From Arthrobacter sp. TMP15 (GTDB lineage: Bacteria; Actinomycetota; Actinomycetes; Actinomycetales; Micrococcaceae): a DNA stretch of 64,000 nt. Under the pieces are notes generated by a model. It was not told the DNA's origin. It saw nothing but the letters and a program-made list of their open reading frames with translations, and ran no database searches. Position numbers and translations under genes: made by a program. Numbering within the stretch: position 1 is the stretch's first letter; each line of letters opens with the position of its first letter. Of this stretch, positions 48,337-52,629 are shown in pieces. The stretch covers positions 1,922,001-1,986,000 of the forward strand of contig NZ_CP154262.1 in NCBI RefSeq assembly GCF_039529835.1, written 5' to 3'.

Positions 48337-50841
48337 CTAGGCAGGAACGATATTGACCAGCTTAGGCGCACGAACGATCACTGTGCGGATTCCACGGCCG
48401 TCAAGAACCTTTTGTACAACCGGCGATGCCAACGCCAACTCGCGCAGATCATCTTCAGAGATATCAGGTGACACTTCCAAACGCTCGCGGACCTTGCCTT
48501 GGATTTGCACAACGGCGGTAATGCTCGCCTGCACCAGAAGTGACTCATCGACAGCTGGGAAGCCAGCGTTCGCTACCGAGGCTGGATGGCCAAGAGCACT
48601 CCACATGTCTTCTGCGGTGTACGGCGCGAAGAGACTCAGAATAATAGCGACAGCTTCTGCAGCCTCTCGCACCGCGGGATCCAACGCACCAGCACCGGAA
48701 TCAATGACCTTGCGTGTAGCATTTACCAATTCCATGATCTTGGCGACCACAACATTGAATTTGTGTCCTTCAAGGAGTGCCTTGGACTCGTGGACGGTCC
48801 TGTGGGTCAGAGACCGCAAGGAGGCGTCGCCAGCCAATACATCGGCGCCGGGCTCGCTGTTAACATCGTTACCCAAACGCCAAGCCCGTGCCAGGAACTT
48901 CGCCGAGCCCGACGGCGAAACATCCGCCCAATCGACGTCGTCCTCGGGCGGACCGGCAAAGACCATGGTGAGGCGGACGGCGTCGACCCCGTATTTATCC
49001 AGCTGCTCGCCCAGATCAACCCCGTTGCCTAGGGACTTACTCATGGCTTTGCCCCCGTTCAGCACCTGCCCCTGGTTCAACAGGGCACTGAAAGGCTCGG
49101 TGGCCTCCAACATGCCCATGTCGTGGATGACCTTGGTGAAGAAGCGGGCGTACAGCAGATGCAAAATGGCGTGCTCAACACCGCCGACGTACTGACCAAC
49201 CGGCATCCAGTCATTGACCTTGGCCGGATCGAAGGGGCCCTGCGTGAACTGCGGTGAGACAAAACGCAAGAAGTACCAGGAGGAATCAACAAAAGTATCC
49301 ATTGTGTCGGTGTCACGCTTGGCTGCCCCGCCGCACGTGGGGCAAGCAACGTTGACCCAATCCGTGGCAGCCGCCAGCGGGGAGGTGCCCTTGGGTGAGA
49401 GGTCCTCGCCGCGCAGGTTCTCCGGCAGGCGGACAGGTAGTTGCTCGTCAGGAACCGGGACCTCACCGCAAGCGGCACAATGAATGATGGGAATCGGGGT
49501 GCCCCAGAAACGCTGGCGTGAGAGCAACCAGTCGCGAAGACGGAAGTTCACAAACTTCTCACCCGTGCCCAGTTTCTCCAAAATTTCAATTGCCGCGGGG
49601 ATGGCCTCAGACTTCGAGAGCCCGCTGAGCTCCCCGGAATTCATCAAGGTACCCTCACCCGTGCTGGCGATGCCACTTTCAGCGGGATCTTCCATGCCTG
49701 TGTCCAAGACTGCCCGCACTGGCAATTTGAAGGCCTTAGCGAAGTCCAGGTCACGCTGGTCGTGTGCGGGAACGGCCATAATGGCGCCCGTGCCGTAATC
49801 AGCTAGGACGTAATCAGCCGCCCACACCGGCAGCTTTTCACCCGTGAGCGGGTTAATAGCGTAGCGGCCAGTGAACACGCCGGACTTCGGGCGTTCCGTT
49901 GACTGGCGCTCAATGTCACTAAGTGCCTTGACTTGTTCACGGTATTCGCTCAATGCCTCAGCGTTCTCGGCCGTGACAAGATCCAGAGCCAACGGAGCAT
50001 CAGCTGCAACCACAAAGAACGTTGCCCCGTAGAGGGTGTCCGGACGGGTGGTAAAAACTTTCAGTTCCTGCTCAGGTTTCTGCTCCCCCGCAGCTTCAAT
50101 CAAAAATGTGACGTGAGCGCCTTCGGAGCGGCCAATCCAGTTTTTCTGCATAGCCAGGACACGGTCAGGCCAGTGCCCCTTCAGCGCGTCCATGTCATCC
50201 AAGAGTCGATCGGCGTAATCAGTGATCTTGAAATACCACTGGTTCAGGGACTTCTTAGTCACAACTGTGCCGCAGCGCTCACAGGCACCACCGACAACTT
50301 GTTCGTTAGCTAGGACCGTCTGGTCCTTGGGGCACCAGTTAACGGGTGAGTTCTTCCTATACGCCAGTCCACGCTCATGAAAGCGTTTAAACAACCACTG
50401 GGTCCACCGGTAGTACTCCGGGTCAGAGGTCTGTAGCCGCCGTGACCAATCAACCGAGATGGCATAACGCTTGAACGACTCGGCCTGCGTGTCAATGTTT
50501 GCATACGTCCACTCGCTGGGGTGGGCATTGCGTTTAATCGCAGCATTCTCGGCAGGCAACCCAAAAGAGTCCCAACCGATCGGGTGCAGGACGTCGTAGC
50601 CCAGCTGACGCCAGTAGCGTGAAACAACGTCGCCCATGGCGAACGCTTCAGCATGGCCCATATGCAGGTCCCCGGAAGGATACGGGAACATATCCAGGAC
50701 GTAGCGGCGTTCCTTGGATCCGTCATCAAGTGGAGCAAAAACGTTCAGTTCATCCCAGACGGCCGGCCATTTGGCTTCCATCGAGGTGAAACTGTAGACG
50801 CCCTCTTCGCTGTTCTCTTCAGTCTGGGACTGCACGCTCAC
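48337..50841 (-). CDS. leuS: Leucyl-tRNA synthetase
   Basis: Class I synthetase charging tRNA-Leu, about 834 residues from the GTG at 50841. The HIGH-type motif is HMGH at about 60-63 ([14 protein letters not shown]), the KMSKS-type motif is KAMSKS, and the CP1 editing domain lies between ([16 protein letters not shown]). Start choice: GTG 50841 has AAAAGG about 8 bases upstream and begins [10 protein letters not shown]; the in-frame ATG at 50862 has no such site. The leader region upstream carries a leucine-codon peptide and a terminator, so leuS is likely controlled by attenuation. Confidence 0.95.
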
Positions 50842-50897
50842 GTACCCTGCCTTTTCATTCATCTATGGCTTATTGCACTTTCCGGCCCTTTACACGC

Positions 50898-50923
50898 AAA
50901 AGCCCCTCGACGTAGCAAGGGGC
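50898..50923 (-). terminator. Attenuator terminator in the leuS leader
   Basis: On the minus strand GCCCCT (50923 to 50918) pairs with AGGGGC (50907 to 50902), then UUUU. It lies 57 bases before the leuS start and after a leucine-rich leader frame, so it would stop transcription before leuS unless pre-empted. Confidence 0.75.
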
Positions 50924-50925
50924 GC

Positions 50926-50945
50926 ACCGCAACACTTGTTGCGGT
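50926..50945 (-). promoter_or_regulatory. First hairpin of the leuS leader
   Basis: ACCGCAAC pairs perfectly with GTTGCGGT around a four-base loop. It begins at the last base of the leader stop codon, so a ribosome stalled on the leucine codons would cover its 5' arm, while a ribosome that finishes would release it. Confidence 0.7.
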
Positions 50946-50971
50946 TAGCTAAGGAGGAGAAGTTTGTGCAC
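50945..50971 (-). CDS. leuS leader peptide with four consecutive leucine codons
   Basis: GTG at 50971 opens GTG CAC AAA, then CTT CTC CTC CTT, AGC and the stop TAA: (M)HKLLLLS. Such runs are the sensor in ribosome-mediated attenuation: low charged tRNA-Leu stalls the ribosome here. A -10-like TAAAGT lies 6 bases upstream of the GTG, so the leader could be translated from a leaderless mRNA. Confidence 0.75.
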   Translation of the reverse strand: MHKLLLLS

Positions 50972-50977
50972 ACCCTT

Positions 50978-50983
50978 ACTTTA
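50978..50983 (-). promoter_or_regulatory. Possible -10 box of leuS
   Basis: TAAAGT on the minus strand, 6 bases before the leader GTG. No clear -35 hexamer is seen at the right distance. Confidence 0.35.
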
Positions 50984-51027
50984 CCGCACCTTCAAAGTTG
51001 ACCAGCGCGCCTGCACACCGTTAACGA

Positions 51028-51064
51028 CGAATATGGCGCAGCAAGCACTGCTGCGCCATATTCG
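51028..51064 (-). terminator. Hairpin after glpK
   Basis: CGAATATGGCGCAGCA (51028-51043) pairs perfectly with TGCTGCGCCATATTCG (51049-51064) around five bases. It lies 48 bases after the glpK stop but has no U run, so termination efficiency is uncertain. Confidence 0.6.
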
Positions 51065-51111
51065 ATCTCAACCATGCGCAGATGCGAGGTTGGGGTGCTA
51101 CTTGGTGCTTG

Positions 51112-52629
51112 TTACTTCACGTCTTCGTCAACCCAGTCCATGGACTTGGTGACAGCCTTCTTCCAGAGACGCATCTGACGGTCACGCTCAGATGATTCCA
51201 TGTTCGGCTCCCAACGCTTATCTTCAGACCAGTTCGAGGACAGCTCGCCGAGGTCTTTCCAGAAACCAACAGCCAGGCCAGCTGCATAGGCAGCACCCAG
51301 AGCCGTGGTCTCGGTGACCTTGGGACGGATCACCGGAACGCCGAGAATATCAGCCTGGAACTGCATGAGCGCGTCGTTGGCGACCATTCCGCCGTCGACC
51401 TTCAACTCAGTCAGGTCAACACCAGAGTCAGCATTGACGGCATCAAGTACTTCGCGCGTCTGGAATGCTGTTGCTTCCAGCGCAGCCCGGGCAATATGGT
51501 TTTTGTTCACAAAGCGGGTGAGGCCAACAATGGCGCCGCGAGCATCTGAACGCCAGTACGGTGCAAACAGACCGGAGAACGCGGGGACAATGTAAACGCC
51601 ACCGTTGTCCTCTACTGCCGCAGCCAACTCCTCAACTTCAGGTGCAGACTTTATCATCCCGATGTTGTCACGCAACCACTGGATCAGGGACCCGGTGACG
51701 GCGATTGAACCTTCAAGTGCGTAGTGCGGGGCAGCATCGCCAAGCTTGTAGCCAAGCGTGGTGAGCAGGCCGTTCTTCGAGTGGACAATTTCCTCGCCCG
51801 TGTTGAAGATCAGGAAGCAACCCGTGCCATAAGTGTTCTTGGCTTCACCAGTCTTGAACGCCGCCTGACCGAAGGTGGCAGCCTGCTGATCGCCAAGGAT
51901 GCCGGCTACGGGAACTTCGCGCAGCAGCTGGCTGCCGTGGACGTGGCCATAAACCTCAGAGGATGACTTGATGGCAGGCATCATTGACTTCGGAACACCA
52001 AAGATCTCGAGAATCTCTTCGTCCCACTGCAGCGTTTCCAGATCCATGAACAGTGTGCGTGATGCATTGGTGACATCGGTGATGTGCACACCCCCATCAA
52101 TGCCACCGGTCAGGTTCCACGTGACCCAGCTATCGGTGTTGCCGAAGAGGAGATCCCCAGCTTCTGCCTTGGCGCGGGCACCCTCAACGTTGTCAAGGAT
52201 CCACTTGATCTTGGTACCTGAGAAGTAGGTAGCCAGTGGCAAGCCAACCTTGGACTTGAAACGCTCAACGCCACCGTCGGCAGCCAGTTCATCAACGATC
52301 GGCTGGGTGCGGGTGTCCTGCCACACGATGGCGTTGTATACGGGAATGCCAGTGTTCTTGTCCCAAACAACCGCGGTTTCACGCTGGTTGGTGATGCCAA
52401 CTCCGACAATGTCGTGACGGGTCAAGTTGGCTTGTGCCAACGCAGTACCAATCACTTCGCGAATATTGTTCCAGATCTCTGTCGCGTTGTGCTCAACCCA
52501 GCCGGCCTTGGGGAAAATCTGCTCGTGTTCAAGCTGGCCCGTGGAAACAATGTTCCCGTCGTGGTCAAACACAATGGCACGGCTGCTGGTAGTTCCTTGA
52601 TCAATGGCAATTACATACTGAGACATCAT
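51112..52629 (-). CDS. glpK: Glycerol kinase
   Basis: Phosphorylates glycerol to glycerol 3-phosphate; 505 residues. It starts [24 protein letters not shown] after a leading Met, with FGGY-kinase motifs [19 protein letters not shown], the [12 protein letters not shown] stretch and [16 protein letters not shown]. Two ATG codons in tandem (52629, 52626) follow AAAGGAAAC. It is the last gene of glpD-glpF-glpK. Confidence 0.97.

Follow-up and report, generated by a model that had tools for sequence, protein, structure and literature searches.

A very short open reading frame (ORF) rich in leucine codons, followed by two hairpins, precedes leuS (leucyl-tRNA synthetase) in Arthrobacter sp. TMP15, and it raises the question of whether the gene senses the charging of its own tRNA and, if so, by which means transcription would be carried past the terminator. 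We examined this locus in a stretch of 64,000 nucleotides (nt) of contig NZ_CP154262.1 (positions 1,922,001 to 1,986,000; hereafter the window) and in the upstream regions of leuS in relatives. With a probability of roughly 0.7, we regard the element as a ribosome-sensing transcription attenuator that would couple leuS expression to tRNA-Leu charging, and in which the hairpin at the end of the leader ORF (hairpin 1) would act as the antitermination device. The kind itself is already known; what is new is its breadth, the fixed geometry between codon and hairpin, and the tested absence of a conserved antiterminator. The preliminary description of this DNA had proposed that a leaderless leucine leader and a terminator control leuS, a proposal which conservation, covariation of hairpin 1 and the fixed spacing between the -10-like hexamer and the start codon support at the level of sequence comparison. 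It also agrees with a codon swap in the leaders of ilvB and citramalate synthase and with RNA-seq of the LeuL2 leader of Streptomyces lividans (PMC8079986; here and below, published systems are compared as described in the accessible portions of the cited sources).

Anatomy of the leader

The 8-codon frame of the preliminary description (GTG CAC AAA, four leucine codons, AGC and a stop), the hairpin of 8 base pairs (bp) at its end and the TAAAGT placed 6 bases upstream of the GTG are all found on the minus strand (Table 1). The GC-rich hairpin with UUUU before leuS stands as well, but its distance to the gene has to be corrected from 57 bases to 56 nt, counted to the likely GTG start at 50841. 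This start, preceded by AAGGCAGGG, is the most likely one, the longest leuS ORF beginning at ATG 50862. In the RNAfold centroid fold the final A of the leader stop codon TAA is already the first base of hairpin 1, and the order 3' of this codon (minus-strand sequence) is CCGCAACAAGTGTTGCGG, TGC, GCCCCTTGCTACGTCGAGGGGC and TTTT.

Table 1. Positions of the features discussed (window coordinates, except for the sister-clade leaders, which carry the names of their loci).
Feature	Position	Strand	Remarks
-10-like hexamer TAAAGT	50978..50983	-	6 nt upstream of the leader start codon, spacer aagggt
Leader peptide ORF	50945..50971	-	GTG CAC AAA CTT CTC CTC CTT AGC TAA (VHKLLLLS*); predicted leaderless; similar to S. 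lividans LeuL2 (PMC8079986)
Key control codon CTT (codon 7)	50951..50953	-	separated by 5 nt from the first pair of hairpin 1
Hairpin 1	50926..50945	-	ACCGCAAC-AAGU-GUUGCGGU, 8 bp; RNAfold centroid fold
Intrinsic terminator	50898..50923	-	GC-rich stem GCCCCUUG..(C)GAGGGGC (50902-50923), then UUUU (50898-50901)
leuS, leucyl-tRNA synthetase	48337..50841	-	TIGR00396, E 4.4e-287
Sister-clade leaders	L106:1371-1449, L107:2152-2238, L110:2152-2229		scored weakly by covariance model R1

The centroid fold of a 145-nt strand consists of both hairpins. The minimum-energy fold of the same strand differs from it, and its long helix was set aside because it recruits bases 5' of the point at which transcription is inferred to begin. 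Since the single-sequence fold is not unusual (the z-score of 0.07 corresponds to an energy like that of shuffled sequence and makes a single sequence uninformative), the case against chance rests on comparison, namely on the matches in all 23 genus genomes and on the covariation of hairpin 1. No Rfam family (T-box or other) matched window positions 50000-52000 up to E 1, and the Trp_leader and His_leader models found no match in the own genome. A scan for the sigma-70 consensus returned no promoter, although this consensus is uninformative for actinobacterial promoters.

Conservation and breadth

Loci were fetched around leuS (80 plus 30), and 4 of 112 without a LeuS signature were dropped (L002, L036, L057, L074). 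A frame of exactly 8 codons with three leucines at codons 5-7 occurs in 38 of the 108 upstream regions, some of which are identical. Within the genus (L083-L105, n = 23), 18 leaders carry three to four consecutive leucine codons, while five have only two, split as Leu-Arg-Leu, Leu-Phe-Leu or Leu-Pro-Leu; the last leucine codon is CTT in 22 leaders and CTC in one. The leader of a sister clade (L106, L107, L110) reads MAYFLG*, with one leucine codon and the terminator directly at the stop codon. As the run is interrupted in five genus members and reduced to a single leucine in the sister clade, it is not essential, whereas the last leucine codon is constant. The preliminary description had suggested aligning relatives for the leucine run and had held that hairpins without such a run would count against attenuation; the latter was observed in part, in the five genus members with an interrupted run and in the sister clade with its single leucine.

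A covariance model (R1) was built from 43 aligned leaders (alignment A1) chosen from 51 references; A1 leaves out L106 and L110 (no hairpin 1) as well as L005, L040, L061, L096, L105 and L112. R1 matches all 23 genus genomes, a figure that is not independent, since 19 of the 43 training rows come from the genus (in addition to L003, whose leader equals that of L100). In the family, 160 of 295 genomes (18 of 32 genera) gave one match each, and in the class the model matched 154 of 393 genomes (51 of 123 genera). The own genome holds a single match (E up to 10), at leuS. In the first set of 80 loci, 29 have an R1 match that coincides with the LeuS match or shortly precedes it, and 51 have none, among them Kocuria, Yaniella, Microbacteriaceae and freshwater lineages, some with little upstream DNA; the cmsearch of loci left out L002, L083, L144, L181, L193, L197, L199 and L211. 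In L012 (Glutamicibacter), one of the loci without an R1 match, a leaderless frame that may be degenerate precedes leuS (MNSQHNLA*, one leucine, CTA).

The 172 R1 matches reduce to 151 distinct ones and, with six non-leuS leaders set aside (L215 by its leader peptide alone), to 145 distinct leaders. A LeuS signature lies at most 900 nt downstream in 58 of the 58 tested loci of L113-L171 (L144 left out), and LeuS was confirmed behind 126 of the 145 leaders, the other 19 having less than 240 nt of DNA fetched past the match. TAnnnT precedes the start codon in 142 of the 145 (at 6 nt in 121, at 7 nt in 21), a count obtained with a parser that favoured such starts.

One codon at a fixed place

Counted back 8 nt from the first pair of hairpin 1, the codon encodes leucine in every one of the 145 leaders (CTT 139, CTC 6), as tallied from alignments A2-A4, which were fitted to R1. 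The preference is the same among the 126 LeuS-verified leaders (CTT 122, CTC 4), and it can be set beside a CTT share of 13% (30/231) among the leucine codons of five window ORFs. The preceding codon is leucine in 134/145 and the next one upstream in 130/145. One codon separates the control codon from the stop in 80/145 leaders and four codons do so in 55/145, which indicates that the stop shifts while the distance between codon and hairpin stays.

Leaders with a like hairpin-terminator plan were also found before other genes, the first five named here being second matches in other genomes. Those of ilvB read VHRILVVS.. (L172), MRLGILVLH* (L176) and VRFGILVLH* (L178), the downstream gene being identified by NCBIfam in the first two cases and by motif in the third, and those of citramalate synthase (TIGR00977) read VLHHVIIIR* (L174) and VQRTAIIIP* (L180), with three isoleucine codons, a hairpin and a terminator. 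The place of the control codon is occupied by GTT or CTT in the former and by ATT in the latter. Twelve ilvB leaders of the own genus (L235-L246) end their control codons with ATT (11) or CTT (1), followed by a hairpin and a terminator; the one in the own genome (L241) reads ATG CAA CGA AAG CTT CCA AGC GTC ATT AGC TAG (MQRKLPSVIS*). The control codons match the product of the gene (leucine for leuS, isoleucine for citramalate synthase, isoleucine, leucine or valine for ilvB), and we consider this swap across genes the best evidence that the codons probably have a regulatory role. A literature search returned no report of the element in Micrococcaceae or before citramalate synthase, a weak negative because most subscription papers were outside its coverage.

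Two side observations concern these leaders. Even where the genome is GC-rich, TT is the usual ending of the last control codon (CTT, ATT, GTT), and earlier control codons often end otherwise. L241 precedes an ilvB match at G000:C1:2446414-2447307 (minus strand), and by eye its hairpin is CGCGTG..CACGTGC, with a terminator behind it.

Covariation of the hairpins

Across the alignment of 43 leaders, both sides have changed in four pairs of hairpin 1, one of which includes the stop-codon base. The covariation score over both hairpins was 0.267, as against 0.131 in shuffles (0/500 as high), and did not exceed 0.097 when the structure was slid along the alignment. More cells were paired than in shuffles (93.5% vs 85.4%), and more of them bore changes on both sides (63 vs 22.8). 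The count of pairs changed on both sides (5) was equalled or exceeded in 189 of the 500 shuffles, and that of further pair types (15) in 472. Hairpin 1 is closed in all 43 leaders by an outermost pair between the final base of the codon that precedes CCGC and the base following GCGG (GC 32, GU 7, AU 4); in the four aligned leaders that end in TAA this pair is A-U. At the base of the terminator the pair is G-C in 33, A-U in 5 and G-U in 2 leaders, and unpaired in 3.

Search for an antiterminator and geometry of the leader

The preliminary description saw no obvious antiterminator pairing, and our tests likewise found no conserved one. Folding and geometry were assessed in 143 of the 145 leaders, two being omitted because their hairpin 1 is very short. 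The 5' arm of the terminator pairs upstream with P 0.160, as against 0.432 in shuffles, and exceeds the shuffled value in only 12/143 leaders; shuffling also breaks up the top of hairpin 1 and thereby inflates the shuffled value. Under nearly the same procedure, the trp, his, leu and thr attenuators of Escherichia coli lie at or above the shuffled mean, unlike the leuS leaders, which lie below it. The number of shuffles (of 50) below the observed value, with the first and the last control codon respectively, was 49 and 50 for thr, 48 and 46 for trp, 32 and 35 for leu, and 35 and 22 for his, so that the control is clear for two leaders and weak for two.

The two hairpins are present together in the predicted free RNA of 133/143 leaders, which leaves a classical three-strand switch unsupported for most members, and the terminator remains the best fold in 139/143 when the base of hairpin 1 is covered. 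Besides 42:90 and 93:124, the covarying column pairs listed are single, several of them involving promoter columns and two (30:129 and 124:131) standing isolated, and none forms a helix. No antiterminator of the trp type, mutually exclusive with the terminator, emerged from these tests as a conserved feature. Two candidate pairings were rejected: the leucine codons with the 3' arm of the terminator (CUCCUU with GAGGGG, by eye), which breaks in leaders bearing CTG, and the 5' arm of the terminator with the 3' side of hairpin 1, which is strong in single leaders (L086, L109) and unconserved.

What is conserved is the spacing. Hairpin 1 and the terminator are separated by 0-3 nt in 144/145 leaders. 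The distance from the ribosomal P site to the end of the terminator varies from 45 to 90 nt (standard deviation 10.1; 143 leaders), whereas the same distance minus hairpin 1 (itself 14-58 nt) has a median of 33 nt, a range of 30-44 and a standard deviation of 2.1, a tightness that follows in part from fixed parts within the sum.

Comparison with known systems

Attenuators of E. coli (trp, his, leu and thr) share with the leader described here the control codons of a leader peptide before an intrinsic terminator, and that of pheST likewise controls a synthetase. The E. coli leaders are not known to be leaderless, unlike the leuS leader as predicted here. An intrinsic terminator between leader and gene, as in the trp type, is apparent from the sequence of the window.

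The closest counterparts are found in Streptomyces. Classical attenuators were predicted in 2005 before leuS of S. avermitilis and S. coelicolor (PMC1262725), and in S. lividans TK24 RNA-seq reported in 2021 a leaderless transcript before leuS for LeuL2, MRAVRLLLSEPR, followed by a hairpin and uridines (PMC8079986). The Streptomyces-like loci L184 and L185, which R1 recovered, have leaders that read MRAVRLLLSEPR. Common to both sides are the gene, a leader with a leucine triplet (leaderless in S. lividans and predicted to be so here), and the hairpin that precedes a uridine-tailed terminator. The short ORF with its leucine cluster lies directly upstream of leuS in the window too, as does, judging from the alignment, a covarying hairpin followed by a U-tract terminator. 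There are differences: the window leader has four leucines where LeuL2 has a triplet, and its ORF stops (TAA) before hairpin 1, whereas LeuL2 runs on to ..EPR with its TGA inside the hairpin. The 2005 prediction, moreover, claims a classical antiterminator, and no conserved one was found here (PMC1262725). The accessible portion of PMC2965389 does not mention leuS.

Branched-chain control codons before a terminator are also found in the leaders of Corynebacterium glutamicum ilvBNC (PMC11857589) and Mycobacterium tuberculosis ilvB1 (PMC13236596). Both differ in gene and codons. In ilvBNC the antiterminator hairpin adjoins the terminator, as hairpin 1 does here, but shares bases with it (PMC11857589), and the ilvB1 leader, at 166 nt, is reported to be of unusual length (PMC13236596). 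Mycobacterial poly-cysteine ORFs are similar in being short, leaderless and devoted to sensing the supply of one amino acid, and differ in that their action is described as translation attenuation, with no part for a terminator (PMC13236596).

Mechanism and alternatives

Comparison of sequences shows the anatomy, the link between control codon and gene, the conservation of hairpin 1 and of the spacing, and that no antiterminator is conserved; we infer where transcription starts in this species, how it responds to leucine, and both the direction and the physical basis of the block that hairpin 1 or the ribosome would impose on termination. Transcription would start at or adjoining the GTG, so that a 70S ribosome would begin on leaderless RNA. 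If charged tRNA-Leu were scarce, this ribosome would stall on the leucine codons, with CTT at codon 7 as the last stall position that would leave hairpin 1 (its base 5-6 nt on) standing against the ribosome. With leucine plentiful, it would reach the stop, open hairpin 1 and depart, and the terminator would end transcription before leuS. In such a scheme hairpin 1, pinned between the stalled ribosome and RNA polymerase, would replace a long strand exchange. Ribosomes close to a terminator suppress termination in E. coli (PMC4824070), and this effect, together with the lack of a conserved antiterminator and the conserved geometry, leads us to favour hairpin 1 as the probable device.

We also put forward, tentatively and as a possibility that we rate well below even, that the arrangement represents a class-wide attenuator free of antiterminators. 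Hairpin 1 would fix a short effective distance between ribosome and polymerase (~33 nt from P site to terminator end, irrespective of hairpin length), a gap in which the terminator could not form, and the passage of the ribosome would open the hairpin and release the slack; geometry and not strand exchange would make the decision, and a swap of one U-ending codon (CTT, ATT, GTT) could fit the same frame to leuS, ilvB or citramalate synthase.

Several observations weigh against the attenuator as we read it, with hairpin 1 as its device. The sister-clade leaders lack a separate hairpin 1 and yet keep one leucine, a combination that the hairpin model leaves unexplained. The window terminator carries only four Us, two of the five covariation measures fail to exceed shuffles, and counts taken from R1 alignments are biased towards R1 itself. 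The leaderless start is weak in the non-leuS leaders (TAnnnT at 5-7 nt in 2/6), and a scan of the 12 own-genus ilvB leaders found no leaderless frame (L241 included, which has no TAnnnT at leaderless distance). A ribosome whose edge lies at +15/16 would, when stalled on CTT, already cover the lower end of hairpin 1, and whether the hairpin stands at that stall depends on which edge is relevant. Published mutations of other actinobacterial leaders give a mixed picture: regulation of S. coelicolor ilvB was unaffected when codons of its leader were changed (cited in PMC1262725). In the C. glutamicum ilvB model, antiterminator and terminator have 3 nt in common (PMC11857589).

The latter model leads to the alternative that we take most seriously, though we think it improbable: a strand exchange with small overlap, in which 2-3 further pairs would lengthen hairpin 1 outward to codons 8-9 and engage the very start of the terminator stem; a stall would then yield the antiterminator and passage the terminator. 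The mutational model of ilvBNC, with its shared GCC trinucleotide (PMC11857589), and the close junction of hairpin 1 and terminator both fit such an exchange, and in 21/143 leaders (e.g., L006-L010) the first 3 nt of the terminator do pair at P > 0.5 with the 11 nt that precede hairpin 1, a subset that could therefore behave in the C. glutamicum manner, to the detriment of our reading. In the other 122, the window leader (L001) among them, the overlap is not seen (mean P over all leaders 0.215), the listed covarying column pairs include no outward pair, and the extension would fall inside a ribosome stalled at CTT. A lesser chance, which we hold to be unlikely, is that hairpin 1 is a mere pause hairpin for ribosome loading, and that the stalled ribosome itself, or a structure beyond thermodynamic prediction, antiterminates. 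Pause hairpins do hold this place in classical leaders; a mere pause hairpin, on the other hand, requires neither the short gap to the terminator nor the fixed 5 nt to the control codon. Pausing has been proposed for the first hairpin of the C. glutamicum leader (PMC11857589).

Two further explanations dispense with transcription attenuation. A constitutive terminator combined with a short ORF kept for other reasons (e.g., a housekeeping stop or an mRNA stability element) would accommodate the fall to one or two leucines in some relatives, and is very improbable in view of the invariant leucine at the key codon, the exchange of isoleucine, valine and leucine in the ilvB and citramalate-synthase leaders, the conserved -10 spacing and the covariation of hairpin 1. 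We give marginally less credence still to translational control by pairing of the pyrimidine-rich leucine codons (CUUCUCCUCCUU) with the leuS ribosome-binding site, in the way of the leuA LEU element, whose base stem is of such a kind (PMC1262725); the codons are partly complementary to AAGGCAGGG (by eye only), but CTG codons in other leaders break the match (also by eye), and a conserved terminator intervenes between leader and leuS.

The Streptomyces-type leuS leader is thus widespread in the class, and the 145 distinct leaders form a set of sufficient size for asking how leaderless attenuators work. With no conserved antiterminator, a fixed codon-hairpin distance and a tight effective distance, the question of how short leaderless leaders antiterminate becomes answerable by spacing mutants.

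Upstream surroundings

The upstream neighbour gene, which ends at 51112, we take from its appearance alone to be a glycerol kinase. Between it and the leader promoter lies a large inverted repeat (window 51006-51086) with 38-nt arms that are 76% complementary and GAATATGGCGCAGCA/TGCTGCGCCATATTC at its centre; it has no T tract.

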